From Stenotrophomonas maltophilia (lineage in GTDB: Bacteria; Pseudomonadota; Gammaproteobacteria; Xanthomonadales; Xanthomonadaceae): a DNA stretch of 64,000 bases. The translations under genes were made by a program, and so were the position numbers. Location: positions 3,871,501 to 3,935,500 of the forward strand of contig NZ_CP106759.1 of the NCBI RefSeq assembly GCF_025642255.1. The letters run 5' to 3'. Shown piece after piece: positions 1,398 through 17,951 of the stretch. The notes under the pieces were generated by a model. That model had not been told where the DNA came from, searched no databases, and saw only the letters and a program-made list of their open reading frames with translations. Positions within the stretch are counted from its first letter, which is position 1, and every line of letters begins with the position of its first letter.

Positions 1398-2753
1398 TCA
1401 GTACGTGCCGTCGAAGGCAAAGATCGGCTTGCGCTGCTTCCACGCGCCAGCGGTGAAGTCAGGGAACTCCAGCGTCTGGAAGCCATTGGCAATGGACTGC
1501 TCGGACAGCGGGGTGATCGCGCTCCAGGTCACTGCATCGTAGATGTCGATCGGCATCGGCGCCTTGGCCTTCAGTGCCTCGACGAACGCATGGATGACGA
1601 ACCAGTCCATGCCGCCGTGACCGGCGCTGGCCGCGGTGTCGGCATGCTGCTTCCACAACGGGTGCTCGTACTGATCCTGGTAGGTCTTGAACTCTTCCCA
1701 CTGGTGCGGCGGGCTGCGGCCTTCAATGTGGATCGAGTGGTTGACGTCCATCCACAGACCCTTGGTGCCCTGCACGCGGAAGCCCATCGAGTACGGTCGG
1801 GGCAGCGAGGTGTCGTGCTGCAGCAGGATGGTCTCACCGTTCTCGCAGGCAAGCGTGGTGGTCACGATGTCACCCAGCTTGAACTTCACTTGGGTGCTGG
1901 GGTGGGTGGTGCCACCGCTCTTGGCCACGGTGTACTCGTGCAGGCCGCGTGCCTTGGTCGCGAAAGCGTTGATATGGGTGAAGCGGTTGCCGCGGTTGAT
2001 GCCGGTGTACATCGCGCACGGGCCGATGCTGTGGCTGGGGTAGAGCTCGCCGTTGCGCTCCACCGAATGCTCGGTGCGCCAACGTGCCTCGCTCCAGCCC
2101 TTGGGACCGAACTCCACGCCACTGTCGTAAGGCTGGCTGGGATCACCGGAGTTGAACTTCACCCCGCGCAGGTCGTGCTGGTAGCCGGCCTGCAGATGCA
2201 CCAGCTCGCCGAACAGGCCCTGTCGCACCATCTGCAGGGCGGCCATCACATCGCGGCGGTAGCAGACGTTCTCCAGCAGCATGTACGGCGTGCCGGTCGT
2301 GAGCTGGGTCTTCAGCACATCCCAGTGGTCCTGCAGGGTGATGCCGGCCACCACCTCGCAGCCTACGGCCACGCCCGCCTGCATGGCGGCGATCGCCATC
2401 GGCGCGTGGTATTCCCACGGCGTAGCGATGATCACGCCATCGATGCCCTTCTGTTCCAGAAGGCGCTTCCAGGCGTTGCTGTCGCGATCCTGGCCATAGG
2501 CCTTCGGCGCAGGCTTGCCGGCCTTGGTTACCATGTCCACGGCACGACCCAGCATGATCGGCTCGATGTCGCACAGTGCAATGACCTCGACATCGTCGCG
2601 GCGCACCAGCTCCTTCAACAGCACCTGGCCGCGCATGCCGGTACCGATCATGGCCAGGCGGAGCGTGCGCCCGCGCGCCCAGGCCGGGGTCTGTGGCAAC
2701 AGGCTGCTGGCGGCGACGGCGGCACTGGCCGCGATGAACTCCCTGCGTTTCAT
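1398..2753 (-). CDS. Gfo/Idh/MocA-type glycosidase, GH109 alpha-N-acetylgalactosaminidase-like
   Basis: Probably removes terminal alpha-linked GalNAc by the NAD-dependent oxidation-elimination mechanism of GH109. The 451-residue protein begins with a twin-arginine type signal (KRREFIAASAAVAASS). A Rossmann motif GTGMRG follows near residue 39. GH109 signatures follow: GCEVVAG near 133, ENVCYRRDVMA near 162, and YPSHSIGP near 238, where the Tyr and His match catalytic residues described for the Elizabethkingia enzyme. The ATG at 2753 is preferred over the one at 2762 because AGGAGA then lies about 10 bases upstream rather than touching the start. It is the last gene of the leftward operon GH31-receptor-GH109. 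A plain dehydrogenase of the same fold is the alternative, but the signal peptide and neighbours favour GH109. Confidence 0.8.
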   Translation of the reverse strand: MKRREFIAASAAVAASSLLPQTPAWARGRTLRLAMIGTGMRGQVLLKELVRRDDVEVIALCDIEPIMLGRAVDMVTKAGKPAPKAYGQDRDSNAWKRLLEQKGIDGVIIATPWEYHAPMAIAAMQAGVAVGCEVVAGITLQDHWDVLKTQLTTGTPYMLLENVCYRRDVMAALQMVRQGLFGELVHLQAGYQHDLRGVKFNSGDPSQPYDSGVEFGPKGWSEARWRTEHSVERNGELYPSHSIGPCAMYTGINRGNRFTHINAFATKARGLHEYTVAKSGGTTHPSTQVKFKLGDIVTTTLACENGETILLQHDTSLPRPYSMGFRVQGTKGLWMDVNHSIHIEGRSPPHQWEEFKTYQDQYEHPLWKQHADTAASAGHGGMDWFVIHAFVEALKAKAPMPIDIYDAVTWSAITPLSEQSIANGFQTLEFPDFTAGAWKQRKPIFAFDGTY

Positions 2754-2818
2754 GGCAAACATCTCTCCTCTTGGAAGCGCGCCGGCCGCAACCGGCGCGC
2801 TGGATCACTCGAACCTGC

Positions 2819-5794
2819 TTACTTGAATCGATAACCGATGGTCACACTGTAACCACGGCCGAAGATCGTCGCGTAGTCGCTGGAGTCACCCAGGAAGCTG
2901 TTCGGATCGTAGAACGGCAGCCGGTCGAACAGGTTCTTGACGGTGAAGCTCAGGTTCCAGGCGTCATCGGGGCGCCAGGTGACGCTCAGGTTGGCGGTCC
3001 ACCAGGACGGCGCGCCGTCGCACTTGCTGGCCTGCAGCGCCAGGTAGCCGGCGGTGCAGGTCTCCTTGTTGTTATCCACTTCATCCACGCGGTCACGGGC
3101 CCACTTGGTACCGCCCACATAGTTGACGAACATGCTGGTGGTCACCTGCTTGTAGGTCCAGTCGGCGTTGAGCGTGGCGCGCAGGCGCGGGTTGTTGTAG
3201 TAGCCCACCACGTCGCCGTAGTACCAGCCGCTTTCCTCATCCATGTAGTAGCGGTTGCGATTGGCGATGGTGGCGGCCAGGCCCACGTTCAGCCCGCCCC
3301 ACTCGCCCAGCGAGAAGCGGCTGCGTGCGTCCACGTCGAAGCCGTCGACCAGGGTCTTGCCGCGGTTCTTGTACTGGCCGACCACGCTGGCCACGTTGCC
3401 CACGCTGTAGCCGGGCAGGACCGAGGGGCAGCTCACACCGCTGGCCGGGTCGGCGCACATCGCCGCCAGCTGGGCCAGGTTTGCACGATCGGCATCAGTG
3501 ATCGGCGAACGGGTGGAGGAGATGATGTCGGTATCACGGCTGAAATCCGGGGCGACGATCTCGTTGTTGCGGTAGATGAACCAGTAGTCGGCCGACACCG
3601 ACAGCCAGCTGGCCGGCTCGTAGACGAAGCCCAGGGTGGCGATCTTGGCCTTCTCCGGCTTCAGGTCCTGGTTGGGCTGGGTCATGCGGGCCACGGTGCG
3701 GCTGCAATCGACGTTGGCCAGGCTCTTGCCCAGGTCCACGTCACCGGCGCGCTGCGACTGCCGCAACAGGTCGGCGATCGCGTTGGTCTCGGCGCAGCGC
3801 ACCTCATCGCGGTAGCCACCGAGCTGGGCGAACACGCCACCGCTGCCGGACTCGGCCAGGCTCGGCGCACGGAAGCCGGTCGAATAGGTGCCGCGCAGCA
3901 TCAGTTGATCGAATGCCTGGTACTTGAAGCCGATCTTCGGTGCGACGTTGGCGCTGAAGTTCGGGTATTTGTCCACGCGGACCGCGGCATCCAGTTCCAG
4001 CTTGTCGGTGATCGGCGCCACCGTTTCGGCGAACAGTGCATAGGTGTTGCGCGCACCGTCGAACCACGAGCCGCCCTGCTGGGTGATCAGGCCGGCGGCT
4101 GCGTCGGCATTGCCCGGCGTGTAGAAGGTTTCGCGGCTGGCATTGAAGCCGAACGCGGCGCGCATCTCACCGGCCGGCAGCTGGAACAGCGGGCCTTCGA
4201 TCTTGCCGTCCAGGGTGTGCAGGCGCGTCCAGGACTGGATGTCGAAGGTCGGGAACGCCTCGCGGATCAGCGCTGCGTTGGCTTCGCTGATCTCACCGAA
4301 CTTGTATGCCGGATGGTCGGAAATGATCACCCGCCCGGTACCCGGATCCACCGAGTAGGGGCCGAAGGCCTTCTCGAAGCCCTTCAGGTTGACGTTGATG
4401 GTCTGGTAGGTGGTGGAGTGCGTGCCGGCGGTGGCGAAAGCAGTTTCCCAGTTCCAGTCACCCATGTTGCCACGTGCACCGGTCAGCACGCGGTAGCTCT
4501 TGTCGGTGTTGCGCTGGCCGAAGTAGTTGGCGCCGGCATCCTGCAGCAGGTACTGCAGGCCGACTACGCCGCCCATCATCGCCTTCAGTTCAGGGCTGGC
4601 GTGGTTGTACTCGTTGTTCGGCCCCAGGTAGGGATACAGGAACTGGTTGACCGTAGTGCCGGTATCGCGGGAGAACCAGCTGGTCGGATTACCGGTGGTG
4701 GTGCCATAGCTGCGGGGTGTACCGCCATTGGCACGCAGATCGATGTCGGTGTAGGTCGCCTCGGCGAAGATTTCGGTCGAGTCGCCCACCAGGAAGGTGC
4801 CATTGAGGTAGGCGGTGTTGCGCTCGGACTTGGCGCCGGCGTCGATCTCGTTGTTCATCCAGGTCTCCCAGACACAACGCGGACCGGCGGCCTCGCCCTG
4901 CAGCACGTTCTTGCACCCGGGTGCGGCCTCCTGCACGCGGCGGCCGGTGACCGGATCGAAGGCGAAGTAACTGCCCGGGTTGAACTCACCCGGCTTGCTG
5001 CCCACGCCCAGGCGCAGGTTCGTCAGGTAATTGGGATTGTTGACGTAGTACTGCTCGGGACGCTTGTCGTAGAAATCACGCAACGGGATCGCGTCACGGC
5101 GGTACATGTTGACCGCACCGTAGATGTTGAAGCGGTTCTCGGCCAGGTCGCCGAAGCCGGCGGTGATGCTGGCCTGGCGCTCACCGTAGGAGTCGATGCG
5201 CGATGACGTATCGTTGGTGAAGTTGATCTCCGCGCCCTGGAAGTTGCGCTTGGTGATCACGTTGATCACACCGGCCACGGCGTCGGTGCCGTACACCGCC
5301 GAAGCACCATCGGTGAGCACTTCCATGCGTTCGATGGCGGCAGCCGGGATCGCATCGATGTTGACGAACTGGGTCTGGAAGCCGGCGGGTGCGCCGTAGT
5401 ACGACAGGCGACGACCGTTCAGCAGCACCAGCGTGCCCTGTGCGCCCAACCCACGCAGATTGGCCTGCGAGGCACCATCGGAGCCGGTGAACAGCGAGCG
5501 CGAATCCTGCTGCGCCGGGCGGGCAGCCGGCAGGTTGTCGAGCACCTGCAGCAGCGTACGCGCACCCATGTTCTGGATGTCCTGCTTGCTGATGACCTGG
5601 ACCGGCGAAGCGGTTTCCACATCGGTACGGCGGATGTTGGAGCCGGTGACCTCGATGCGGGCCAGGTCGGTGGCGTTGTCCTTGCTGTCCTGCGCAGCGG
5701 CAGGCAGGGCGACCGACAGCAGCGCGCCGGCAATGGCCAGCGTCAGCGGAGCGATCGTGCGACAGGGGGGGCGGCGGTAGCGTGCGGGCAACAT
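2819..5794 (-). CDS. TonB-dependent outer-membrane receptor
   Basis: A 991-residue outer-membrane beta-barrel with an N-terminal plug, expected to import an oligosaccharide or GalNAc-containing ligand using TonB energy. It has a signal peptide ending near PAAAQ, then the TonB-box region LARIEVTGSNIRR. The plug motifs are ASPVQVISKQDIQ, NLRGLG, LVLLNGRR, IERMEVLTDGASAVYGTDAVAGVINVI (shown in part). The C-terminus RGYSVTIGYRFK is a last beta-strand ending in an aromatic plus one Lys. AGGAGA lies 8 bases before the ATG. It sits between two glycosidase genes, with gaps of 119 bp and 65 bp, so it is most likely co-transcribed with them. The substrate is inferred from context only. Confidence 0.9.
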   Translation of the reverse strand: MLPARYRRPPCRTIAPLTLAIAGALLSVALPAAAQDSKDNATDLARIEVTGSNIRRTDVETASPVQVISKQDIQNMGARTLLQVLDNLPAARPAQQDSRSLFTGSDGASQANLRGLGAQGTLVLLNGRRLSYYGAPAGFQTQFVNIDAIPAAAIERMEVLTDGASAVYGTDAVAGVINVITKRNFQGAEINFTNDTSSRIDSYGERQASITAGFGDLAENRFNIYGAVNMYRRDAIPLRDFYDKRPEQYYVNNPNYLTNLRLGVGSKPGEFNPGSYFAFDPVTGRRVQEAAPGCKNVLQGEAAGPRCVWETWMNNEIDAGAKSERNTAYLNGTFLVGDSTEIFAEATYTDIDLRANGGTPRSYGTTTGNPTSWFSRDTGTTVNQFLYPYLGPNNEYNHASPELKAMMGGVVGLQYLLQDAGANYFGQRNTDKSYRVLTGARGNMGDWNWETAFATAGTHSTTYQTINVNLKGFEKAFGPYSVDPGTGRVIISDHPAYKFGEISEANAALIREAFPTFDIQSWTRLHTLDGKIEGPLFQLPAGEMRAAFGFNASRETFYTPGNADAAAGLITQQGGSWFDGARNTYALFAETVAPITDKLELDAAVRVDKYPNFSANVAPKIGFKYQAFDQLMLRGTYSTGFRAPSLAESGSGGVFAQLGGYRDEVRCAETNAIADLLRQSQRAGDVDLGKSLANVDCSRTVARMTQPNQDLKPEKAKIATLGFVYEPASWLSVSADYWFIYRNNEIVAPDFSRDTDIISSTRSPITDADRANLAQLAAMCADPASGVSCPSVLPGYSVGNVASVVGQYKNRGKTLVDGFDVDARSRFSLGEWGGLNVGLAATIANRNRYYMDEESGWYYGDVVGYYNNPRLRATLNADWTYKQVTTSMFVNYVGGTKWARDRVDEVDNNKETCTAGYLALQASKCDGAPSWWTANLSVTWRPDDAWNLSFTVKNLFDRLPFYDPNSFLGDSSDYATIFGRGYSVTIGYRFK

Positions 5795-5913
5795 CGGGGT
5801 TCTCTCCTGGCAGGGGTGCGGCGCGAATGTGGATCAGCGGGCAAAACGCTCCCGGGCCACGGCCAGCAGGCCGCAGTCGGTATGGGCGGGGGAGGAGCGG
5901 TGTTACGAAGGGG

Positions 5914-8900
5914 TCATGGGGCGACGATGCTGGCGGAGTCGCCCTCCTGGCCGATCAGCACGGCGTTGGCCCAGTTGGCACAGACCTGGGCGGGTTGACT
6001 GCCCTGCGCACCCAGCGTGCGCAGGCTCAGGGTGGTAAGGCCACGGATGTCCAGCTCCGGCTTGACCACGCCGGGCGCCTTCACCAGGCCGCTGTCGTAG
6101 AGCAGGCGGTTGTCGCCCCAGACCTGGAACTGCAGGCCGCCTGCGCTGCGGCAGGCATCATCAATGCCCAGATCCGCACGCAGCAGGCGCCAGCCGCCCT
6201 GCAGACGCAGGTCGATGCGGCTGTTCGCGCCCACTCCCAGGCCACGGCGGAACTGCAGGCCGTTCATGCGCATGCCGGCCTCGCCACGGAACGCCTGGTC
6301 GGCGCGCACCTGGCTGGCCAGCGCGGCCGGCACCGGCAGCTCGGAGAGATAGCGCTGCCGGGCCGGTCGCTCCGGTTCCTGGTGCTCGAGGATGTGGAAG
6401 GTGGACAGCGCGATCGGGCCGACATCGCGTGGCTGCAACGCGTCGAACGCGCGGGCGCTGCCCTGTGCCGCAGTGACCATCGGGTCGGTGCTGCTGGCGC
6501 CGTCACCTTCGGGGTTCTGCACGCTCAGCACCCGGAAACGCAGCAGGCGACCGGCGTGTGCGGGGAAGTCGATGCGCTGCATTCCTTCCTTCAACTGCAG
6601 CCGGCCCCGGGCGATCGGCTCGCCCCATTCGCCATTGCTGTCGCCCAGGTACACCTCGTAGTCGCGAACCTGGCCATGCTTCCAGTTCTTGTCGTTGCGT
6701 GGCGCCAGCTCGATGCCGTCGATCATCCGGCGCTCACCGAAGCCGACCACCCATTCGTGGGCGCCGGTGCGCACGGCCTGGTTGCGCACGCTGCGGAACC
6801 AGGTGGACGGGTCATCGTCGAACGCGTTCTCCAGCGGATGGCCAGGCTCTTCCGCTGGGCGGTTGACCACCAGCAGGCTGTCGGCCGGCAGCTCGCGGCC
6901 GAGCACCGGCGCGGCCGGATAAGCATCGTCCGCAGCGGCGGCGGTCACGGCGAAGTCCAGCTGCACCTGCAGTGGCTGGCGGATATCCTGCGTGGCGGTA
7001 CGCACATGGACGGTGCCGCCACGCTCACGGGCATCGAAATACCAGCCTTCGTCGGCACCGTTGAAGGCTGCCGCGTCGGCCAGCGCGGGCAGCACACGGG
7101 CGCCGGCCTGCACTGCGCGCGGGGCCTGCCGGCTCAACACGCGCAGGCCGTAGCGACGCTGCGCCAGCTGGCCCTGGTAGGTGCCCTGCACGGCCGCGAT
7201 CTGCACCTGGACCGGGCCACTGCCCTGTGCCGGCGCCTGCACGCGGATCTGCTGCGTGCTCGATTCGCCCTGCTGGTAGCGGCGGGTGTTGCCGTCGTCT
7301 TCGTACAGCGTGTACTGCGAATCGCCCTGCGGATAGAGATCGAAGGTGACCTCGTCCAGCGGCTTCTCGCCATCGAACAGCATCGACGGATACATCGGCA
7401 GGATGGCCCCGGCGCGCACGAACACCGGCAGCGTGGCCAGGTCGACCTGACGGTCGAGCTGGCGGCCCTCGGCGCCGGCCTGCATGCGGCGGCCGTCCCA
7501 GTAGTCGATCCATCCACCGGCCGGCAGATGGATGTCGCGCCGCCAGCCACGGCTGGCCGCCTGGCTGCGGTAGACCGGTGCGATCAGCAGATCACGGCCC
7601 AGCAGGAACTGATACTTGTAGGTTTCGTCCTGCGCGTGCGGATCGCGCGGGTAATCCCACATCAACCCACGCACCGGCGGCGCGCCTGTCTGCGCGGCGT
7701 CGTGCACCAGCCCGTACATGTACGGCGTCAGCCGCATCTTCAGTTTCAGATAGTCGCGGTTGATGCTGCGGTAGGGTTCGTCGTACCACCACGGGTGCTT
7801 GCGCGCGTTCGACGACCAGCCACTCATGCCCATCAGTACCGGAGTGAAGGCCTTCCACTGCAGGTCGCGGGTGTAGGTCTCGGCGCTGCCGCCGAAGATC
7901 GCATCGACATCGCCACTGGCATAGGCCATGCCGGACAATCCCGAGCCGACCAGGGTCGGCACGTGCCAGCGGATGTAATCCCAACTGCTGCTCTGGTCAC
8001 CGGTCCAGGCGACCGCGTAACGCTGGATGCCGGCCCAGCCCATCACCGTCCACAGGAAGGGACGCGAATCGGAATTGTCGACGATGCCATTGAACGCCTG
8101 GCGGTTGGCATCCATCGCGAACTGATAGCCCTTGCCGGTCCAGGCCACATCCAGCTTCTGTACACGGCTGCCGGCCTTGCCGACTTCCCAGGCGATCTTG
8201 TCGACACCGTTCTCCGTCCACAGGCCGGTGCGGAAGCCGTATCCGGCCAGACCCTTCACCGTCTCGGGCAGCTGCTTGTAGCCGCAGCCATAGCCGTCGT
8301 TGGGCAGGATCCAGCCACCGGGCATGTCGTGTGCCCGGTACTGCTTGGCCACGCTGTCGACCACGTCAGGCGTGGTGCCGGTCGGGCCATCGCTCCAGCC
8401 CTCGGGCACGGTGCCCGGCTTCTTCGCGTTGTCGCCGTCGTTGTAGCAATCGGCATCGCCATAGGACAGCGCCCAGCGCGCGACCATGTTGGGACGGCCG
8501 GTCAGCTGCGTGTAGCGCTCGATCAATGCCGGCAGATCGGCACCGACGAAGTAGTAGGCGTCGAAACGATCTTCGCGATGCAGCAGGGTGGACTGATCGG
8601 GCTGGCGCAGGTCGTAGCTGCCGTCGCTCCACGTATTGCGCAGCATGCCCCAGCCGCGGCTGCTCAGCAGCATCGGCGCCGGGCTCGGTCGATCACCCTC
8701 TTCCCAGCCGCCGGAGTAGGACACCTCAAGCTCGCGTCCCTTGAACTGGTAACGGCCATTCTGCTGGCCGCCGCCGAAGAATCCTTCGTCGGGCTGCGAC
8801 GAGAGTACCTGCACGCTCTGTGCAGCATCCAGGTCCAGCGGCTGCAGCTCCTGCCACAACGCAGTGGGCTGGCCATTGTCCAGACGCTCCAACCGCAGGC

Positions 8901-9267: not shown

Positions 9268-9294
9268 GCGGACTCCCAACCCGTTCACCGGGCG

Positions 9295-9388
9295 TTTCGA
9301 AAGCGGTTGGGCCGACTCTAGGGCAGGGATTCGAAAGATGTCAACAAATGGAAAGCAAAAAGTAAGATAAGTTCGACTAAAACGAAAG
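9295..9388 (-). promoter_or_regulatory. Leftward promoter/operator module of the GalNAc locus (candidate AgaR sites)
   Basis: Read on the minus strand, this stretch has CTTTCGTTT (9380-9388), the 20-base core TTATCTTACTTTTTGCTTTC (9351-9370), TTGACA (9339-9344, a consensus -35) and TAGAGT (9315-9320, a 4/6 -10 with an 18-bp spacer). TTTCGAA palindromes overlap or follow the promoter at 9330-9336 and 9295-9302. Five of the eight CTTTC/GAAAG boxes in the intergenic region have this orientation or lie here. AgaR motifs of Proteobacteria are known to be multiple CTTTC boxes. The boxes inside the promoter spacer suggest repression. The promoter should drive the GH31-receptor-GH109 operon. Confidence 0.65.
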
Positions 9389-9464
9389 GTGATGCGGCGC
9401 AGTACTTTGTGTAATCGCTTGCACTCCCCTGTTAAGCTTGGTGCGATACGGCATTTTTCGATTC

Positions 9465-9550
9465 CTTTCGTTTGGGACGATTGCGGTCTGTCAGAAACGC
9501 CAAGCGCTCTTTATCTTTCTTTTTGCTTTCGGTATTTGACATTTCGAAAG
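9465..9550 (+). promoter_or_regulatory. Rightward promoter/operator module of the GalNAc locus (candidate AgaR sites)
   Basis: Mirror image of the leftward module. It has CTTTCGTTT (9465-9473), core TTATCTTTCTTTTTGCTTTC (9511-9530), TTGACA (9536-9541) and the palindrome TTTCGAAA (9542-9549). The core differs from the leftward copy at one position. The -10 is poor: 17 bases after TTGACA stands GATCGT. The module ends 40 bases before the agaS start codon. An AAGCGCT sequence at 9502-9508 could be an additional regulator site but is unproven. This is the expected control region for agaS-kinase-agaZ-agaR-nagA-permease. Confidence 0.6.
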
Positions 9551-9589
9551 AAAACACAGATCGTGCGATGGCCCAACTGGAACCTCCGA

Positions 9590-10756
9590 ATGGACGTCAC
9601 CCTGCTTTCCGATGTGTCCGCCTGGCAGCGCCGGGGCGGAGCCGATACCGCTACTGAAATCGCCCAGCAGCCAGCACTGTGGGACGCGCTTGCACAGGAT
9701 CTGCTGCAGGCCCGCGAACGCCTGCAGGCCTTCCTGGGCGACCGCCTCGACAATCCCGATCAGCGCGTGTTGTTCACTGGCGCCGGTAGTTCCGGCTTCA
9801 TCGCCGAGATGGTGGCCGATGCGATCAACGCGCAGTGGGCCGCTGACGTCCGTGTGGTGCATACCACCAGCCTGCTGACCCATCCGGCGCTGTATCTGCA
9901 ACGCGACCGCCCCACCCTGCTGGTTTCGTTCGGCCGCAGTGGCTCCAGCCCGGAAAGCGTGGCAGCGGTGGACCGTGTGCGCAGCGACGTGGATGACGCA
10001 CGCTTCCTCGACATCACCTGCAACGCTGATGGCGAACTGGCCCGGCGCGGTGCCGGCCGTGCCGATACCTGCACCCTGTTGATGCCGTCGGCCAGCTGCG
10101 ACCGTGCCTTTGCGATGACCAGCAGCCTGACCTGCATGCTGCTGGCCGCGCTGACCGTGTTCGACCGTTCACCGTGGCAGACGCGGGTGGCGCGCCTGAC
10201 GCAGCTCGCTGCGCTGGTCCGCGAAGGCCAGGCGCAGTGGGATGCACCGGTGGCCGCGCTGGCACAGCGCCCCTTCAACCGCGTCATCTACCTGGGCAGC
10301 GGTCCGCTGGAAGCGCTGGCGCGCGAGTGCGCGCTGAAGGTGCTGGAGCTGACCGCCGGCCGCGTGCTGGCGCTGGCCAACACGCCGCTCGGCTTCCGCC
10401 ACGGCCCGAAATCCACGCTGGATGGCAGCACCCTGGTGATCGTGCTGCGCAGCGTGCAGCCGCTTGCACGCCGCTACGAGCAGGATCTGCTGGACGAGCT
10501 GCGCCGCGATGGCGTGGCCGGCCAGGTGCTGGCCATCGGCCCGCATTCGGACATCGGTGCCGACGATGACTACACCCTCGCCGTACCCGTCCTGGAGCCG
10601 GTTCTGGATGATCCCTGGCTGGCGCCGGTGTGGCTGGCCTTCGGCCAGCTGTTCGCACTGCAGCGCTCGGCCGCGCTGGGGCTGACCCCGGACAATCCGT
10701 TCCCCGACGGCACGGTGAACCGCGTGGTCAAGGGTGTCACCATCCACCATGGCTGA
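9590..10756 (+). CDS. agaS: AgaS-type galactosamine-6-phosphate deaminase/isomerase (SIS domain)
   Basis: Expected to convert galactosamine-6-phosphate to tagatose-6-phosphate and ammonia in the cytoplasm. The 388-residue product has two SIS sugar-phosphate-binding domains: FTGAGSSGFIAE (62-73) with SFGRSGSSPESVA (113-125), and a second with YLGSGPLEALARECALKVLEL and a HGPKS motif. Length and motifs fit AgaS rather than GlmS, as no amidotransferase domain is present. I chose ATG 9590 (MDVTLLSDVS). The frame is open back to 9389, but that part runs through the promoter module and has no protein-like sequence. It is the first gene of the rightward operon and overlaps the kinase gene by 8 bp. 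Confidence 0.9.
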   Translation: MDVTLLSDVSAWQRRGGADTATEIAQQPALWDALAQDLLQARERLQAFLGDRLDNPDQRVLFTGAGSSGFIAEMVADAINAQWAADVRVVHTTSLLTHPALYLQRDRPTLLVSFGRSGSSPESVAAVDRVRSDVDDARFLDITCNADGELARRGAGRADTCTLLMPSASCDRAFAMTSSLTCMLLAALTVFDRSPWQTRVARLTQLAALVREGQAQWDAPVAALAQRPFNRVIYLGSGPLEALARECALKVLELTAGRVLALANTPLGFRHGPKSTLDGSTLVIVLRSVQPLARRYEQDLLDELRRDGVAGQVLAIGPHSDIGADDDYTLAVPVLEPVLDDPWLAPVWLAFGQLFALQRSAALGLTPDNPFPDGTVNRVVKGVTIHHG

Positions 10757-11687
10757 GTTGATCGCCCATGCCTGCTACGGCATCGATATCGGCGGCACCA
10801 AGATCGAGCTGGTGGCGTGCGATGCGGCGATGCAGGTCACCTGGCGCCGCCGGGTGGCCACTCCGCAGGGTGACTACGATGGCTTTCTGCGGTCGGTGGT
10901 GGCGCTGGTCGCCGACGCCGACGCCGCACTGGGCCGCAACGATGCGGCCATCGGCATCGCGCTGCCCGGCGTGCGTGACCGCCGCACGGGCCGCCAGCTA
11001 AGTGCCAACGTGCCGGCGCTGACCGGCCACAGTGTGGCGGCCGACCTGCAGGCACGCCTGCAGCGTCCGCTCCATTTCGGCAACGACCTGCAGTGCTTCG
11101 CCTTGTCCGAAGCCCATGGCGGCGCAGCCGACGGCTACCCCAGCATGTTCGGCGCGATCCTCGGCACCGGCGCCGGTGGCGGCTTCTGCCTGCAGGGCCG
11201 CCTGCTGTCCGGCTTCAACGGCCTGGCCGGGGAGTGGGGCCACTGGAGCGTGCCGGGCCACCTGCTGCAGCGTCACGGCCTGCCGTTGATCGACTGCGCG
11301 TGCGGCCTGCAGGGCTGCGTTGAGCGCTATGTATCCGGCAGCGGCCTGGCGATGATCGAACGCCACCTGGGCGGCGCGGCCGTCGATGCCAGTGCGGTGA
11401 TCGCACTGGCCGAAGGCGGCGATGCGCGTGCACGCAGCGCGCTGGACATCCACCGCGACCTGCTCGGCCACAGCCTCGCTGCGCTGGTGCTGGCCCTGGA
11501 CCCGCATGTGATCGTGCTCGGTGGCGGCCTCTCGCAGTACACCCCGCTGTACCAGCAGCTGCCGGCGGCAATCGCTGCCCATCTGTTCAACGGCGTGCAG
11601 GTGCCGCCGATCGTGCCCCCGCGCTTCGGCGATGCCGGTGGCGCCCGCGGTGCCGCGCTGCTTGCCTGCCAACCCTCGTTTTCCTGA
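10749..11687 (+). CDS. ROK-family sugar kinase, probable N-acetylgalactosamine kinase
   Basis: Likely phosphorylates imported GalNAc (or GlcNAc) at C6 with ATP. The 312-residue product shows the ROK layout. The ATP motif GIDIGGTK is at 11-18, catalytic Asp113 is in FGNDLQ, and a second phosphate motif LGTGAGGG is at 138-145. Zinc ligands are His165 and the CACGLQGC cluster (183-190). Start ATG 10749 overlaps the agaS stop as ATGGCTGA, indicating translational coupling; an upstream ATG at 10734 is less likely. ROK kinases vary in specificity, so the GalNAc role rests on the neighbours agaS, agaZ and the deacetylase. NagK (GlcNAc kinase) is the main alternative. Confidence 0.85.
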   Translation: MAELIAHACYGIDIGGTKIELVACDAAMQVTWRRRVATPQGDYDGFLRSVVALVADADAALGRNDAAIGIALPGVRDRRTGRQLSANVPALTGHSVAADLQARLQRPLHFGNDLQCFALSEAHGGAADGYPSMFGAILGTGAGGGFCLQGRLLSGFNGLAGEWGHWSVPGHLLQRHGLPLIDCACGLQGCVERYVSGSGLAMIERHLGGAAVDASAVIALAEGGDARARSALDIHRDLLGHSLAALVLALDPHVIVLGGGLSQYTPLYQQLPAAIAAHLFNGVQVPPIVPPRFGDAGGARGAALLACQPSFS

Positions 11688-11698
11688 TTGTCCGGAGC

Positions 11699-13039
11699 AT
11701 GACCATGTCCCCGTTGCAGACCCTGCTTGCCTCCCACCGCGCCGGCCACAATGTGGGCCTGTACAGCGTCTGCTGCAGCAACGAACAGGTGCTGCGCGCG
11801 GCCATGCACGTGGCACTGGCACACGACACGGTGCTGCTGGTCGAAGCCACCTCCAACCAGGTCGACCAGTTCGGCGGCTACACCGGCATGACGCCGCCGC
11901 AGTACCGCGACTATGTCGGCACGCTTGCGGATGAGGAAGGCTTTCCGCGCACGCGGCTGATCCTGGGCGGCGACCACCTCGGTCCGAACGCCTGGCAGAA
12001 GCGCCCCGCCGCCGAAGCGATGGCCCACGCGCGCGTGCTGATCGAAGCCTACGTGGCCGCCGGCTTCCACAAGATCCATCTGGACTGCAGCATGTCCTGC
12101 GCCGACGATCCGGTGCCGCTGCCTGATGCCACCGTGGCCGCGCGTTCGTCGGAACTGGCGACGATCGCCGAGCGCACGGCTGCCCGGCTCGACCTGCCGG
12201 CGCCGGTGTACGTGATCGGCACCGAAGTGCCCGTTCCCGGCGGCGAAGCCTCGCTGGCCGGTGGCCTGCAGGTGACCACGCCGGCAGCCGCCGCGCAGAC
12301 CCTGGCCATCCACCAGCAGGCATTCGATACCCCCGAACTGCGCGATGCCTGGCAGCGCGTGATCGCGATGGTGGTGCAGCCGGGCGTTGACTTCGATCAC
12401 AGCAGCGTGCACGAGTACGACCCGGTCGCCGCCAACGCGCTGGCCGACTTCCTCGAGCAGCAGCCGCGCATCGTGTTCGAGGCGCACTCCACCGACTACC
12501 AGCGCGAAAGCGGACTGCATGCGCTGGTCCGCGATCATTTCGCGATCCTCAAGGTCGGCCCCGCCGCCACCTTCGCCTATCGTGAGGCGCTGTTCGCGTT
12601 GGCAGCGATCGAACAGGAGCTGCTGCCGGCTGCGCAGTGCTCGCGCCTGCCACAGGTGCTGGAGGAGGTGATGGTGGCGCAGCCGAAGTACTGGCAGCCC
12701 TACTACCAGGGTGACGAGGCGACACTGCGCCTGTTGCGCAGTTATTCCTTCAGTGACCGCTGCCGCTACTACTGGGGCGAACCGGCACTGCTGCGCGCCG
12801 TGCAGACGCTGTTCTCCAACCTGGAGCAGCACACGCCACCGTTGGTGCTGCTGAGCCAGTACCTGCCGGAGCAGTACCGCGCCGTGCGTGACGGCCGCCT
12901 GGCCAACACGCCGACGGCCCTGGTGCAGCACCGCATCGGCCAGTGCCTGGGCGAGTATGCCCGCGCCTGCAGCGCCAACCAGGCAGGCAAGCGCGGTCAG
13001 GACACACGATCCGCTGCCGGCATTGCTGCGAACGGCTAA
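11699..13039 (+). CDS. agaZ: AgaZ/GatZ/KbaZ family protein of tagatose-6-phosphate metabolism
   Basis: A 446-residue protein with the strongly conserved GatZ/KbaZ blocks: EATSNQVDQFGGYTGM, LGGDHLGPNAWQ, and KIHLDCSMSCADDP. In enteric bacteria this family is described as the non-catalytic partner of class II tagatose-1,6-bisphosphate aldolase (AgaY/GatY/KbaY); a kinase role on tagatose-6-phosphate has also been proposed. No AgaY-like aldolase is encoded nearby. Two in-frame ATGs, 11699 and 11705, are possible, and CCGGAGC lies just upstream; the second has the more usual spacing. It follows the kinase by 11 bp and precedes agaR by 34 bp, so it is part of the same operon. Confidence 0.9.
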   Translation: MTMSPLQTLLASHRAGHNVGLYSVCCSNEQVLRAAMHVALAHDTVLLVEATSNQVDQFGGYTGMTPPQYRDYVGTLADEEGFPRTRLILGGDHLGPNAWQKRPAAEAMAHARVLIEAYVAAGFHKIHLDCSMSCADDPVPLPDATVAARSSELATIAERTAARLDLPAPVYVIGTEVPVPGGEASLAGGLQVTTPAAAAQTLAIHQQAFDTPELRDAWQRVIAMVVQPGVDFDHSSVHEYDPVAANALADFLEQQPRIVFEAHSTDYQRESGLHALVRDHFAILKVGPAATFAYREALFALAAIEQELLPAAQCSRLPQVLEEVMVAQPKYWQPYYQGDEATLRLLRSYSFSDRCRYYWGEPALLRAVQTLFSNLEQHTPPLVLLSQYLPEQYRAVRDGRLANTPTALVQHRIGQCLGEYARACSANQAGKRGQDTRSAAGIAANG

Positions 13040-13073
13040 TCTCTACCCCTCACAGCAGACCCGAGACTCCGCC

Positions 13074-13850
13074 ATGCGCAACACCCGCTCCCGCCGGCAA
13101 CAGATCCTGCAGCTGCTGATCGAGCACGGCTCGGTGCAGGTGGCCGATCTGGTCGAGCGCTTCGGCGTGTCCGCGGTGACGATCCGCGCCGACCTGACCC
13201 ACTTCGAGTCGCAGGGCCTGGCCAACCGCACCCACGGTGGCGCCAATCTGGTGCGCACGCCTCCGCAGGAGCAGGACATCCATGAAAAGGATGCGCTGAA
13301 TCTGCCCCTGAAGGAGTCCATCGGCGCCTGCGCGGCGAACCTGGTGCAGGCCGGTGACAACATCATCATCGACTCCGGTTCGACCACCATGACGCTGGCC
13401 CGCCATCTGCGTGGCCGCCGCGATGTGACGGTGATGACCAATGGCCTGAACATCGCGTGGGAACTGGCCAATGCTGCCGGCATCAATGTGCTGCTGACGG
13501 GCGGGCTGCTGCGTCAGCAGTCGTTGTCGCTGCAGGGCAGCCAGGCCGAGGCCAGCCTCAATTCCTACAGCTTCGACACCCTGTTCCTGGGCGTGGACGG
13601 GTTGGACCTGCAGTTCGGCCTGACCACCCACGATGAGGCGGAAGCGCGCCTCAACCACCGCATGGTCGAGCGCGCGCGGCGCATCGTCGTGCTGACCGAC
13701 GCCTCCAAGTTCGGCCGTGTCAGCCTGCATCGCATCGCCCGCCTGGATCAGATCCATACCGTCATCACCGACGCCGGCATCGACGACGCAACCCGCGAGG
13801 GCCTGCAGCGGCTGGGCATCGAAGTGATCATCGCCGAGCCGCCCGCATGA
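13074..13850 (+). CDS. agaR: DeoR-family transcriptional regulator, AgaR-like
   Basis: A 258-residue cytosolic repressor. The N-terminal winged helix covers residues 1-58 (RRQQILQLLIEHGSVQVADL then FGVSAVTIRADL). The C-terminal effector domain resembles sugar-phosphate isomerases, with DSGSTTMTLARHL and LLTGGLLRQQSLSLQG. I chose ATG 13074 because homology begins at MRNTRSRRQQ; the open frame before it overlaps agaZ in another frame. Its stop overlaps the next start as ATGA. It most likely represses the divergent GalNAc promoters at 9295-9550 and is induced by an amino-sugar or tagatose phosphate. Binding has not been shown here. Confidence 0.88.
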   Translation: MRNTRSRRQQILQLLIEHGSVQVADLVERFGVSAVTIRADLTHFESQGLANRTHGGANLVRTPPQEQDIHEKDALNLPLKESIGACAANLVQAGDNIIIDSGSTTMTLARHLRGRRDVTVMTNGLNIAWELANAAGINVLLTGGLLRQQSLSLQGSQAEASLNSYSFDTLFLGVDGLDLQFGLTTHDEAEARLNHRMVERARRIVVLTDASKFGRVSLHRIARLDQIHTVITDAGIDDATREGLQRLGIEVIIAEPPA

Positions 13851-14962
13851 CCGACACCCGTTCCCTGCATGGCCGCATCCTCACCCCGCTGGGGTGGCGA
13901 CGTGGGCATGTCCACTTCGACTCGCATGTGCGCCAGCTGCAGGTGGACGACCACAGCGGCGGTGATGACCCGCAGCTGCAGGTGATCCTTCCCGGTTTCA
14001 TCGATCTGCATGTGCACGGCGCTGCCGGTGTAGACCTGATGCAGGGCGGCGACGTCGCCCGCACCATCGCCCGCACCCACCTGCGCTTTGGTACCACCAC
14101 GCTGCTGGCGACCACCCTGACCGCCGGCCTGGACGAGATCGAGTACGCCCTGCAGGGCGTGGCCGCCACCATGGCAGCACCGGACGACGAGGCCGCATGC
14201 ATCGCCGGCGTGCATCTGGAAGGGCCGTTCATCAGCCCTCAGCGCCTGGGCGCACAGCCCAACCGTACGATCGAGGCGACGCTGGCGCTGGTGCAGCAGC
14301 TGCATGCGCTGGCACCGATCCGGGTGATGACGCTGGCGCCGGAGATCGGCGAACACACGGCGCTGATTCCTGCGCTTTCGGCGATGGGCATCCGTGTGCA
14401 GCTCGGCCACAGCGCGGGTACTTACGAAGAAGGTGTGGCTGCTCTGCAGGCGGGTGCATCCGGCTTCACCCATCTGTTCAACGGCATGACCGGCGTCGAT
14501 CACTATCGCCCGGGCATCGCGGCGGCGGCGCTCGCCCATGCACGTTACGCCGAGATCATTCCCGACCTGCAGCACATCCATCCCGGCGTGATCCGCCTGG
14601 CCGCGCGCGCGATTCCGCGCCTGTACGCGGTGACCGACGCTACGGCCGCCACCGGCATGCCGGATGGCGAGTACGCGCTGGGCGAACAGCGCGTGCACAA
14701 GTGTGGCGGTTGCGTGCGGCTGGCGACCGGTTCGCTGGCCGGCAGCGCGCTGACCATGGACCAGGCACTGCGCAACCTGGTGCGTGTGGGGCTGGATCTG
14801 GCCGACGCCTCGCAGCGCGTTTCCACGTTCCCGGCCGACTACCTGGGCCTGGGCGATCGCGGTCGCATCGCGCCCGACGCCCGCGCCGATCTGGTGGTGC
14901 TGGACGCTGGACTGCGCCTGCAGCAGGTGGTGGTGGGTGGCCGGGTGGTCGAGCTGCACTGA
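13847..14962 (+). CDS. nagA: NagA/AgaA-type N-acetylhexosamine-6-phosphate deacetylase
   Basis: A metal-dependent amidohydrolase of 371 residues that would remove acetate from GalNAc-6-phosphate and supply AgaS. All expected ligand and catalytic residues are visible: His55 and His57 in DLHVHG, Glu125 in HLEGPF, His188 in LGHSAG, His209 in THLFNGM and Asp274-type acid in TDATAATGMP (Asp264). The ATGA overlap with agaR indicates coupling. NagA enzymes also act on GlcNAc-6-phosphate, so GalNAc specificity is inferred from neighbours. I name it nagA at family level; agaA would be appropriate if GalNAc specificity were shown. Confidence 0.9.
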   Translation: MTDTRSLHGRILTPLGWRRGHVHFDSHVRQLQVDDHSGGDDPQLQVILPGFIDLHVHGAAGVDLMQGGDVARTIARTHLRFGTTTLLATTLTAGLDEIEYALQGVAATMAAPDDEAACIAGVHLEGPFISPQRLGAQPNRTIEATLALVQQLHALAPIRVMTLAPEIGEHTALIPALSAMGIRVQLGHSAGTYEEGVAALQAGASGFTHLFNGMTGVDHYRPGIAAAALAHARYAEIIPDLQHIHPGVIRLAARAIPRLYAVTDATAATGMPDGEYALGEQRVHKCGGCVRLATGSLAGSALTMDQALRNLVRVGLDLADASQRVSTFPADYLGLGDRGRIAPDARADLVVLDAGLRLQQVVVGGRVVELH

Positions 14963-15027
14963 GCAACATCCCTGCCGTAGAGCCACGCATCGCGCGGCGC
15001 CACAGAACGCAATCTGCGAAGAACCGC

Positions 15028-15050
15028 CGCCGGGCAGGGCCCGGCGCTAC
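15028..15050 (-). repeat. SMAG/REP palindrome in front of the permease gene
   Basis: CGCCGGGCAGGGCCCGGCG plus CTAC. It lies in the 102-bp gap between the deacetylase and permease genes, only about 15 bases from the permease start and abutting its AGGAA ribosome-binding site. A stem here could lower or modulate permease translation. Confidence 0.8.
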
Positions 15051-15064
15051 CACAGGAACTGCCG

Positions 15065-16852
15065 ATGACTGCAAGCACCGCTCCGCGCTGGCCCGTACGC
15101 TATCTGCTCTTCATCGGCGGCCTCGGCGGCCTGCTGTACGGCATCGATATCGGCATCATTGCCGGTGCCCTGCCCTATCTGGAAGCGACCGCCAGCCAGG
15201 CCTGGCAGCTCAGCAGCCAGCAGCTGGGATTCGTCGTTGCAGCCGTTCTGCTGGGCAGTGTGCTGTCCTCTTTGTTTGCCGGCATGGTGGCCGATCTGAT
15301 CGGACGCCGCGGCGCGATGCTGCTGGCTGGCGTTCTGTTCACCGCCTCCATTCCCATCATGGCGCTCGCTTCGGGCTACACGCCGCTGCTGCTGGGCCGA
15401 CTGCTGCAGGGCATCAGCGGCGGCCTGATCGGAGTGGTGGTACCCCTGTACCTGGCCGAGGTGCTCAGTCCGGAGCGGCGTGGCCGGGGTGCAGCGATGT
15501 TCCAGCTGCTGCTGACCATCGGACTGGTGCTGGCGGCGCTGATCGGCCTGTACCACGCCCAGGCCGTGGATGCCGCTGCCGAAACCGTGCGCTCGCTGCC
15601 GCTGGCACAGCAGGCGCAGGAACTGTTCGCCGTGAAGGACCATGCGTGGCGGACCATCTTCTGGAGCTGCCTGACGCCGGGCCTGGTGTTCTGTGCCGGC
15701 ATTTTCTGGCTGTCGGAGTCGCCGCGCTGGCTGGTCCGCCGTGGTCGGGTGGACGACGCCCGTCGCAGCCTGCTGCGGGTGCTGCCGGCCGCCGAGGTCG
15801 AGCCCACGCTCGCGCGCATCCAGGCACCGGAATCCAGTGGCACGAACGGCAGGCGTGATCCGCTGCTCAGCCGCCGCTACGTGGTGCCCTTCGTGCTGGC
15901 CTGCGTGGTCCTGGCCTGCACCCAGGCCACCGGCATCAACTCGGTGCTCGCCTATGCGGTGAACATCCTCAACCAGGCGGGCCTGTCCGGTTCGGTGGCC
16001 AATGGCGCCGACGTGGCGATCAAGCTGCTCAATGCGGTGATGACCGTGGTCGCGCTGCTGCTGGTGGATCGCAAGGGCCGCAAGTTCCTGCTGATGCTCG
16101 GCAGCGGCGGTATCTGCGTGGCGCTGCTGGCCGCCGCCACCCTGTTTTTCCAGGCCGAACGCAGCCGCGCCGATGTGCAGCCGCAGCTGCAGGCCGCAGC
16201 CAGCGGCGATGGCCTGCATCTGGTACTGGACGAGGCACAGTGGCAACGCCTCACTGACGGCATCGACAGCGAAGGCCGTCCGATGCAGCTGACCGTGTCC
16301 TACGCCTATGGCGACTTCACCAACGTGCGCGCACTTCGCAGTGACAACCTGATCGATCGCGAGCTGCGCATCGACCGTGCCGGCACCGTGCAGCCGGACA
16401 GCGTCATCGGCGCCTTCTTCCGCACCCTGCACCTGAATCCGTTCGCAGACCCGGCCGGCGCCGCGCACGCACCACTGCGCATCGAGCAGGCGCGGATCGG
16501 ACCGGTGCCAACGCCGGCCCACGGCTGGGCGGTGGCCGCCTGCATCCTCGTGTTCGTTGCCTTCTTCGCGGTGGGCCCTGGCGTCTGCGTATGGCTGGCA
16601 CTGTCCGAGCTGATGCCCAACCGGATCCGCTCCAATGGCATGAGCATCGCGCTGCTGATCAATCAGTTCGTGTCCACCACCATCGCCGCGATCTTCCTGC
16701 CGACCGTGGGCCACTATGGCTACGCCAGCATGTTCCTGTTCTGGGCGGCATGCACATTCGTGTTCTTCCTGGTGGCTGCGTTCTGGCTGCCGGAAACCAA
16801 GGGCAGGTCGCTGGAGGAAATCGAGGCCAGATTCGCGACCAGGCAGCGCTGA
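15065..16852 (+). CDS. MFS sugar-porter permease with a large periplasmic insertion
   Basis: An inner-membrane proton/sugar symporter of 595 residues, probably the cytoplasmic-membrane step for GalNAc uptake. Sugar-porter motifs are present: GLLYGIDIGIIAG (TM1), ADLIGRRG (77-84), SPRWLV (219-224), TQATGINSVLAY (286-297), DRKGRK (335-340), PETKGRSLEE (576-585). Typical family members have about 460-500 residues. The surplus is a soluble insertion at about 364-486, between TM9 and TM10, which is periplasmic by standard MFS topology, and a smaller one between TM5 and TM6 (about 165-195). AGGAA precedes the ATG. Its stop lies 7 bp from the convergent lipoprotein gene. The substrate is inferred from the operon. 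Confidence 0.88.
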   Translation: MTASTAPRWPVRYLLFIGGLGGLLYGIDIGIIAGALPYLEATASQAWQLSSQQLGFVVAAVLLGSVLSSLFAGMVADLIGRRGAMLLAGVLFTASIPIMALASGYTPLLLGRLLQGISGGLIGVVVPLYLAEVLSPERRGRGAAMFQLLLTIGLVLAALIGLYHAQAVDAAAETVRSLPLAQQAQELFAVKDHAWRTIFWSCLTPGLVFCAGIFWLSESPRWLVRRGRVDDARRSLLRVLPAAEVEPTLARIQAPESSGTNGRRDPLLSRRYVVPFVLACVVLACTQATGINSVLAYAVNILNQAGLSGSVANGADVAIKLLNAVMTVVALLLVDRKGRKFLLMLGSGGICVALLAAATLFFQAERSRADVQPQLQAAASGDGLHLVLDEAQWQRLTDGIDSEGRPMQLTVSYAYGDFTNVRALRSDNLIDRELRIDRAGTVQPDSVIGAFFRTLHLNPFADPAGAAHAPLRIEQARIGPVPTPAHGWAVAACILVFVAFFAVGPGVCVWLALSELMPNRIRSNGMSIALLINQFVSTTIAAIFLPTVGHYGYASMFLFWAACTFVFFLVAAFWLPETKGRSLEEIEARFATRQR

Positions 16853-16859
16853 GCAGGGT

Positions 16860-17345
16860 TCAGGGCGCCGGCACCCGCTGGCCGGTGATGTGCCATGCCA
16901 GTTCCTGCGCCTCGGCCACGCTGGGCAGGCCACTCAACATCATCGATTCGCCGAACGGGCCACTCACCGTCGCCACCGTCAGCACGCGGCCATCCACGCT
17001 GATCGCCACCCGCTTTCCCACCAGTGCGGCCGTGCCATCGTGGATGCGCTGCTGTGCCTCCTTGCGATAGCGGATCTGCAGGCCGGGCTGCTGGCTCTGG
17101 TCCAGCACGTAACGGACATCGGCGATGTCGGCACTGCCGGCAATCGGCGGCTCACGCAGCGCGAGTGTTTCACCCTGCCACTGTACCGCCGTGCCGTTGC
17201 CGGCAGCATCGATCGCGCTCAGACGCACATCCACGCCCGGACGCGGCGCATGATCCCTGCCAGCCTCCGCATCCGCTGTTGCGCCGGGCATGCAACCGGC
17301 CAGGCCCAGCACCGCGACCAGCAGAAGCGAACCCGCCCGCCTCAC
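16860..17345 (-). CDS. Lipoprotein with SecD P1-head-like domain
   Basis: A 161-residue predicted lipoprotein with lipobox LAGC near residue 14. The rest resembles the periplasmic P1 head of SecD: ADVRYVLDQSQQPGLQIRY, then VGKRVAISVDGRVLTVATV and a C-terminal SVAEAQELAWHI. I chose GTG 17345, which overlaps the upstream stop as GTGA and has GAGGAAG six bases before it; the same frame runs open to 17924 only because it shadows the upstream gene. It is co-translated with the HdeD-like protein. The function is not known; the SecD resemblance suggests peptide handling in the periplasm, but this is speculative. Confidence 0.8.
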   Translation of the reverse strand: MRRAGSLLLVAVLGLAGCMPGATADAEAGRDHAPRPGVDVRLSAIDAAGNGTAVQWQGETLALREPPIAGSADIADVRYVLDQSQQPGLQIRYRKEAQQRIHDGTAALVGKRVAISVDGRVLTVATVSGPFGESMMLSGLPSVAEAQELAWHITGQRVPAP

Positions 17346-17893: not shown

Positions 17894-17951
17894 GACCACT
17901 CCTTCGATCCGGAATCGGCTTCATCCTAGCCCTTGGCGATGAAGAGGGCGA

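Follow-up and report, generated by a model that had tools for sequence, protein, structure and literature searches.

Gene content and organization of the locus

The window analysed in this study is a stretch of 64,000 nucleotides (positions 3871501-3935500) of the genome of a Stenotrophomonas maltophilia strain, which is assembled as a single contig of 4.12 Mb. Listing of open reading frames (ORFs) and profile scans revealed nine genes at window positions 1398-16852, arranged in two divergent operons. We propose, with a probability of roughly 0.7, that they form an AgaR-controlled locus for the scavenging of N-acetylgalactosamine (GalNAc), that this locus belongs to the carbohydrate-utilisation type built around a TonB-dependent receptor (TBDR), and that its pathway ends in an epimerisation by AgaZ. 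An earlier note, made from the sequence alone, had placed each of the nine genes in a named family; these assignments were recovered at the coordinates given below, and the set goes beyond chance, as the best family profile E-values of the locus proteins reach 8e-186 and relatives carry this set too.

The minus-strand operon is transcribed in the order GH31, TBDR and GH109, the genes being 119 and 56 bp apart. The plus-strand operon is tightly packed: agaS (start at 9590), a ROK kinase gene (10749), agaZ (11705), agaR (13074), agaA (13847) and a major facilitator superfamily (MFS) permease gene (15065) follow each other with intergenic gaps of -8, 17, 34, -4 and 102 bp.

The first gene of the minus-strand operon (5914-9288) encodes a putative GH31 alpha-N-acetylgalactosaminidase (alpha-GalNAcase) made up of a GH31 barrel and C-terminal F5/8-type-C and NPCBM modules. 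Its true start is perhaps internal, at Met18 (about 9237). The best PDB matches are 6M76, 7F7R and 7F7Q (5e-108), the last two being titled GH31 alpha-N-acetylgalactosaminidase; the next GH31 group follows at 1.5e-47. These three structures come from E. faecalis, and GH31_18 is the subfamily label of the GH31 alpha-GalNAcases. D380 holds the nucleophile position, where 7F7R and 7F7Q have Asn or Ala in the alignment, and D431 occupies the acid/base position inside a WTGDQ motif. Both motifs are found in all 66 GH31 ORFs of the cluster.

The last gene of this operon (1398-2762, minus strand) encodes a GH109-type alpha-N-acetylgalactosaminidase (PF21252, 2.9e-80), in which both the C-terminal domain and the NAD-binding fold are present. 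It matches the alpha-N-acetylgalactosaminidase 2IXA best (2.6e-144), followed by the GH109 entry 6T2B (6.8e-72). Residues Y241 and H244 align with Y225 and H228 of 2IXA, presumably the GH109 active-site residues, and the corresponding motif is kept in 54 of 56 ORFs. The N-terminus carries KRREFIAA, which resembles a twin-arginine translocation (Tat) signal, and an RRxF twin-arginine pattern lies within the first 60 residues of 56/56 GH109 ORFs. Because of this probable Tat signal, GH109 is presumably periplasmic. With their catalytic residues kept, GH31 and GH109 would both act as alpha-GalNAcases. A tRNA-Arg(CCG) gene at 1134-1210 adjoins the GH109 end of the locus and is a possible insertion point.

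Between the two glycosidase genes lies the gene for the TBDR (2819-5794, minus strand). Plug and barrel domains are present (PF07715, 2e-21; PF00593, 1.3e-35), and no STN domain was reported in the family scan. Similarity to PDB entries is at the level of the plug only, the colicin I receptor being the best match (2e-20). The protein is not a SusC, scoring 37 bits against a cut-off of 368.25, and profile scans of ten genes detected no SusD family. It is presumed to import a GalNAc-bearing glycan.

Proteins with a DUF3472 domain were observed beside the receptor and glycosidase genes of some relatives. A DUF5077-DUF3472 protein occupies positions 5304-6632 of a Duganella locus (L080), with the same cluster in L081, L082, L069 and L073, and a DUF3472-ricin lectin protein occupies 2010-3164 in a Lysobacter locus (L042). 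The L080 and L042 proteins are candidates for a new glycan-active family.

In the plus-strand operon, two proteins pass the cut-off of their specific models. AgaR (13074-13850) is a DeoR-family repressor (NF040755, 327.2 bits for a cut-off of 260), and AgaZ (11705-13039) belongs to the AgaZ/GatZ/KbaZ family (PF08013, 8.4e-186; TIGR02810, 605.6 for a cut-off of 568.8), with 2FIQ as its best PDB match (1.3e-126). AgaS (9590-10756) is an AgaS-type SIS-domain protein, a predicted galactosamine-6-phosphate (GalN-6-P) deaminase/isomerase (TIGR02815, 1.6e-119), whose best PDB matches (3ODP, 3C3J and 3I0Z, to 1.8e-82) are titled "tagatose-6-phosphate ketose/aldose isomerase". The ROK sugar kinase (10749-11687; PF00480, 3.8e-63) is proposed to be the GalNAc 6-kinase, i.e. 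to take the role of AgaK; its best PDB match is the N-acetyl-D-glucosamine (GlcNAc) kinase 7P7I (1.8e-75). The NagA-type protein at 13847-14962 (TIGR00221; best PDB match NagA 2VHL, 7.4e-48) is the putative GalNAc-6-P deacetylase in the role of AgaA. A NagX-NagA-NagB-II cluster lies apart in the genome, and of its proteins NagA alone passes its cut-off. AgaA is 43% identical to this NagA, which argues that AgaA is not the housekeeping GlcNAc deacetylase.

The last gene of the operon (15065-16852) encodes a sugar-porter MFS permease (TIGR00879, above cut-off), the presumed GalNAc importer. Its model matches the folds of STP6, XylE, GlcP and GLUT, with Z up to 31.3. It has an alpha/beta insert of about 123 residues (16157-16525) between transmembrane helices 9 and 10, presumably on the periplasmic side according to the usual MFS topology. 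The insert is conserved in 54 aligned sequences, namely the window and 53 homologues (a 54th cluster member was set aside because of its length), with the motif DSVIGxFFRxLHLNPF, and its homologues span Xanthomonadaceae and Duganella. It matched no Pfam family and no PDB sequence, it was not found in 72,556 plasmid records, and a scan of viral contigs gave no relative. The isolated model has a pLDDT of 73.3 and gave no Foldseek match at E<=0.001; the best VIA-align Z is 3.9 (root mean square deviation 3.2, 76 aligned residues). At this moderate model confidence, the lack of a convincing match does not imply a new fold. As a guess, the insert may capture sugar at the periplasmic mouth of the permease. 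Downstream of the permease gene lies a convergent gene (16860-17924); its ORF has a SecDF P1-head domain at the end, an unusual setting for this domain to stand alone.

The divergent promoter region carries an array of AgaR-type boxes

The divergent promoter region from GH31 to agaS (9289-9589) contains eight CTTTC/GAAAG boxes, at 9299, 9333, 9351, 9384, 9465, 9515, 9526 and 9546. CTTTC is reportedly the operator consensus of AgaR, according to the 2012 work of Leyn. In 1000 shuffles of the 302-bp region the mean was 1.5 boxes and the maximum 6. The region is also the densest CTTTC/GAAAG stretch of the window, where the best other stretch holds 3, and 6 of the 25 CTTTCG hexamers of the window fall at 9298-9550.

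The array is shared by relatives (see below for the sample). A divergent region could be measured in 71 of the 79 loci (the other 8, having no divergent partner in range, were dropped before counting); in total, these 71 regions hold 487 boxes for 95 expected. After dereplication, 43 regions hold 276 boxes, from 3 to 10 apiece. In an alignment of the window with 28 of the 71 regions, hand-picked for spread, box columns are better conserved than the others (0.84 vs 0.54; p 2e-9, the columns not being independent). The box at 9465 is an exception and is poorly conserved, while the box at 9546 is identical in 29/29 aligned regions.

The promoter scan found one sigma-70-like promoter for the GH31-TBDR-GH109 operon, where 0.2 were expected (TTGACA-18-TAGAGT, 9315-9344, minus strand); the box at 9333 falls in its spacer. 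On the other side, upstream of agaS, the sequence reads TTGACA followed by TTTCGAAAG (9536-9550, plus strand), as a mirror image of the GH31 side. This second element was not among the promoters reported by the scan; it is the probable -35 element and operator of the catabolic operon. With one box in the GH31-side spacer and another after the agaS-side TTGACA, a single repressor could hold both operons. AgaR would repress both through these boxes, and their position between the operons is consistent with such control.

Distribution of the locus in relatives

Relatives were collected by a pattern-based scan with one genome per species; the best 80 of 86 relatives gave 79 distinct loci, to which the following counts apply. 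The closest named relative is the locus of S. maltophilia IAM 12423, with 98-100% identity across the nine proteins. All nine genes are present at 50% identity or more in 47 of the 79 loci, in hosts that are mostly Xanthomonadaceae. When the 12 loci shorter than 20.4 kb are set aside, the full set occurs in 45 of the remaining 67. At the same threshold, AgaS and the ROK kinase were each found in 79 loci, AgaZ in 76, AgaR in 75, GH31 in 70, the TBDR in 65, GH109 and AgaA in 62 each, and the MFS permease in 55.

According to their titles, 45 loci come from Stenotrophomonas (including [Pseudomonas] hibiscicola), 15 of these from S. maltophilia; 12 come from Lysobacter, 6 from Pseudoxanthomonas, 3 each from Luteimonas and Duganella, and 1 each from Vulcaniibacterium and Dokdonella. 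The remaining 8 are metagenome-assembled genomes (MAGs) without a genus, or carry odd labels. No locus titled Xanthomonas occurs among the best 80 of 86 relatives. This mixture of genera indicates that the locus is not tied to the clinical species. One locus (L052), titled Bacillus subtilis SK7B5, is a Xanthomonadaceae-like aga locus with a GH109 92% identical to that of the window; this assembly is probably contaminated or mislabelled.

AgaZ and the last step of the pathway

The textbook scheme requires a LacC-type tagatose-6-phosphate (Tag-6-P) kinase and the aldolase AgaY/KbaY. Neither was found by family searches of the genome; for the scheme to close, AgaZ must act otherwise than annotated or stand-in enzymes must exist. 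The class II aldolase family PF01116 (AgaY/KbaY/GatY) had 0 matches in the genome (control positive in 11 of 14 genomes). PF01791, which covers LacD and DeoC, had no match either (control positive in 13 of 14), and a hidden class I tagatose-bisphosphate aldolase of this kind was rejected on that search. All seven PfkB-family matches of the genome were scanned and none comes near the LacC cut-off: the best scores with Tag-6-P kinase models are 126.4 of 469 bits and 111.1 of 409.55, both from a FruK-like kinase. The genome has a single phosphofructokinase (PFK), of the pyrophosphate (PPi)-dependent type, and a single class I fructose-1,6-bisphosphate (FBP) aldolase (match at 2e-140, with a search control positive in 0 of 14 genomes). 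The latter is an intact ORF of 334 residues; an apparent stop in the match proved to be merely its normal terminal stop.

Co-occurrence was assayed in 247 genomes of the family. AgaZ is present in 55 of them and PF01116 above cut-off in 3, with zero overlap. Within the genus, 12 of 13 genomes have AgaZ, that of the window included, and 54 of the 55 AgaZ genomes are at least 90% complete. That 55 genomes carry AgaZ without its catalytic partner makes the annotated job of "non-catalytic subunit" unlikely.

Three loci lack a local AgaZ (L034, L048 and L076). Each of these assemblies has a copy elsewhere, as does that of L077, where the local copy is partial. The locus of Pseudoxanthomonas winnipegensis (L034) was considered as a counter-example by loss of AgaZ and rejected, since an AgaZ of 50% identity lies elsewhere, beside a second agaR and agaS. 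Indeed, this genome has a second, diverged aga group (L103, 1814-12448; 10 of 27 listed ORFs scanned), with a DeoR regulator (46% identical to the AgaR of the window), a Melibiase/GH31-like protein, AgaZ (50%), AgaS (45%) and a GH27-NPCBM protein. Three CTTTC boxes follow the regulator gene at 2706-2790. A PF01116 search of the P. winnipegensis genome gave no match.

What AgaZ might do instead is suggested by its homologues. GatZ and KbaZ are reported to interconvert Tag-6-P and fructose-6-phosphate, with an active site, proposed and not proven, made up of C20, E44, D87, H88, E171, H257 and K279 of GatZ (PMC11907403). AgaZ keeps all seven residues (C23, E47, D90, H91, E174, H261 and K283). Among 68 AgaZ ORFs, the motifs around D87/H88, E171 and H257 are found in 68, E44 in 67, C20 in 66 and K279 in 65. 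Since family searches of the genome did not recover the aldolase of the textbook last step, a sugar epimerase probably closes the pathway instead. On this evidence the best reading is that AgaZ would be a D-tagatose-6-phosphate 4-epimerase making fructose-6-phosphate, without a visible KbaY/GatY partner. A Tag-6-P epimerase in GalNAc catabolism was not described among the literature matches listed, in which subscription papers are thinly covered.

Proposed pathway and alternative explanations

In the pathway that we propose, the TBDR would import small alpha-GalNAc-bearing glycans or glycopeptides. In the periplasm, GH31 would free GalNAc from Ser/Thr, and GH109 from terminal or small alpha-GalNAc compounds. 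The MFS permease would carry GalNAc into the cell, where the ROK kinase would convert it to GalNAc-6-P, AgaA would deacetylate the latter, and AgaS would turn GalN-6-P into Tag-6-P. AgaZ would then epimerise C4 to give fructose-6-phosphate, which enters central metabolism with no phosphorylation and aldol cleavage. The sequence itself shows gene content and order, relatedness, kept catalytic residues, the operator-like array, conserved co-occurrence and the lack of a class II or LacD-type aldolase match; we infer every enzyme activity and where it is located, which substrate is the natural one, that AgaR binds, and which way the flux runs. The GalNAc locus claimed in the earlier note is supported: it combines two glycosidases of alpha-GalNAcase type with uptake across both membranes, a kinase, a deacetylase, a deaminase/isomerase and AgaR. 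The pathway assignment was largely right. The word "complete" failed on the textbook scheme and is correct only if AgaZ is an epimerase or if substitutes exist. A broader proposal, which we hold slightly more probable than its negation, is that the GalNAc pathway of Xanthomonadaceae is aldolase-free with AgaZ as its sole closing enzyme, and that the permease has a new periplasmic domain, perhaps capturing sugar or docking glycosidases.

Several observations weigh against an AgaZ-terminated GalNAc pathway. AgaS scores 399.2 bits with its best model, TIGR02815, for a cut-off of 529.2; the ROK kinase reaches 294 of 380 with its best model, a GlcNAc kinase; and AgaA, with 222.4 bits for TIGR00221 (nagA), falls just under the cut-off of 225.65. 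The three proteins are nearest to the expected families, and their exact substrates, including a kinase specificity for GalNAc rather than GlcNAc, thus rest on context. Not every locus has AgaA (62 of 79) or the permease (55 of 79), and in 13 of 71 divergent regions the CTTTC count is not above the largest of their own 100 shuffles. Two of the 55 AgaZ genomes (G016 and G091) contain short PF01116 fragments below cut-off. Among seven genomes searched through other loci (L082 was not included), a class II aldolase was present in 2 and absent from 5; both carriers are Duganella that have the locus, with the aldolase elsewhere in the genome, so that the argument is firm for Xanthomonadaceae only. 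Moreover, E. coli KbaZ is reported to be necessary for full KbaY activity (PMC3668189, PMC10101011), and the PF08013 family may therefore have a second role. Finally, the class I aldolase (L084), the PPi-dependent PFK (L083) and the FruK-like kinase (L086) of the genome, present in one copy each, could in principle handle tagatose phosphates.

These three enzymes make a textbook ending with substitutes conceivable: the PPi-dependent PFK, the FruK-like kinase or AgaZ itself would phosphorylate Tag-6-P, and the class I FBP aldolase would cleave tagatose-1,6-bisphosphate. A 2025 review indeed retains a phosphorylation as step 4 and a cleavage as step 5, with AgaZ as the proposed Tag-6-P kinase (PMC12118421), and Pfk or LacC was proposed as a stand-in in Streptococcus suis (PMC4694137). 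We regard this ending as unlikely, because the nine-gene locus has agaZ without such a kinase or aldolase, AgaZ bears the metal-site residues of a proposed retro-aldol epimerase, and the Tag-6-P kinase models score far below cut-off in the genome. It is very improbable that the locus serves some generic sugar, with GH31 as a glucosidase or xylosidase and GH109 as a Gfo/Idh-type redox enzyme. Both families are broad, and the NCBIfam alpha-xylosidase, alpha-glucosidase and Gfo/Idh-type dehydrogenase models do match the locus glycosidases, all below cut-off. However, among solved structures alpha-GalNAcases match best by far (5e-108 vs 1.5e-47 for GH31; 2.6e-144 for GH109), the catalytic residues are kept, and the neighbours are aga genes.

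Natural substrate

The earlier note had taken the locus for a host-glycan use system, and the use of host or mucin glycans is biochemically plausible. In Bacteroides thetaiotaomicron, GH31 acts on mucin GalNAc, and the action of GH109 extends to Tn antigen, blood-group A and Forssman sugars (PMC11992087). In view of these activities, the GH31/GH109 pair may share out core and terminal GalNAc here too. Use of core 1 would need a beta-galactosidase; in one distant locus, from a gammaproteobacterial MAG (L068), agaZ and agaA flank a GH35 beta-galactosidase gene (13358-15223). Neither a sialidase nor a GH101 or M60 peptidase was detected in profile scans of the nine genes, a search that did not extend to the rest of the genome.

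The same biochemistry could serve another food, namely environmental alpha-GalNAc glycans and not host mucins: bacterial exopolysaccharide and envelope polymers, or invertebrate or fungal glycans. We consider the odds of this to be even. The locus occurs in Lysobacter, Luteimonas, Pseudoxanthomonas, Vulcaniibacterium, Duganella and S. rhizophila besides S. maltophilia, and 64 of the 79 loci carry titles other than S. maltophilia, which weakens the host-glycan reading. Stenotrophomonas other than S. maltophilia, Lysobacter, Luteimonas, Pseudoxanthomonas and Duganella are mostly environmental. Lectin staining revealed Gal/GalNAc polymers in biofilms of one soil consortium with S. rhizophila among its members (PMC11985002). 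The activity of the gut-bacterial GH31 relatives on core mucin GalNAc points the other way, as do the GH114 data. A GH114 enzyme would indicate fungal galactosaminogalactan. GH114 had no match in the genome and is not enriched with AgaZ (2/55 vs 3/192 other genomes; Fisher p 0.31), and this polymer was dropped as an unsupported substrate.

Significance and comparison with known systems

The near-absence of the class II aldolase (3 of 247 genomes, none with AgaZ) amounts to a natural genetic test of a doubtfully labelled family. If AgaZ does work without KbaY, the name "non-catalytic subunit" and the last two textbook steps need revision here, and GalNAc carbon goes to fructose-6-phosphate instead of triose phosphates. 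In addition, the locus offers new candidate GH31 and GH109 alpha-GalNAcases, which could serve as tools for O-glycans and blood-group A, as well as a permease whose extra domain belongs to no recognised family. It also permits a direct test of Stenotrophomonas feeding on mucin-type glycans. A GalNAc locus of Stenotrophomonas or Xanthomonas was not described among the literature matches listed, again with thin coverage of subscription papers.

Xanthomonas loci for carbohydrate utilisation with TonB-dependent transport (CUT loci) combine a TBDR with enzymes, an inner-membrane transporter and a regulator. These components are found together in the present locus, which differs in that its sugar would be GalNAc and that no Xanthomonas is found among the 79 loci (best 80 of 86 relatives). 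GatZ and KbaZ are said to have been described as C4 epimerases by Wichelecki in 2015. AgaZ shares with them PF08013 and all seven named active-site residues, but the context described for them in the excerpts available is the use of galactitol and the making of tagatose, rather than a role at the end of GalNAc catabolism (PMC11907403).

The polysaccharide utilisation locus BT4240-50 of B. thetaiotaomicron, together with BT3169, has GH109 and GH31 alpha-GalNAcases, TonB-linked uptake, an MFS transporter and a GalNAc kinase, all with predicted counterparts in the window (PMC11992087). Its own features are SusCD, an M60-like peptidase, GH2 and an APH-type kinase leading to the 1-phosphate, whereas the route here would run through the ROK kinase and AgaS. 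The aga/gam system of E. coli has AgaR and AgaZ/KbaZ in common with the locus, as well as AgaS and AgaA, whose roles are predicted here; it relies on phosphotransferase system uptake and KbaY, neither of which is present in this locus, and the genome is without a KbaY-family match (PMC3668189, PMC10101011).

The Aga pathway of Shewanella comprises AgaP, AgaK, AgaAII and AgaS with the outer-membrane protein Omp-Aga (PMC2996990). Shared features are non-phosphotransferase uptake by an outer-membrane receptor and a permease and, as predicted for the window, a separate kinase, a deacetylase and AgaS. In contrast, two candidate alpha-GalNAcases sit on the shared promoter region here, the permease is a sugar-porter MFS protein with an insert, and a class II aldolase was not found in the genome. 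The Shewanella-type AgaR reportedly is of DeoR type with CTTTC boxes, again following the 2012 work of Leyn, and the same combination occurs in the locus described here.

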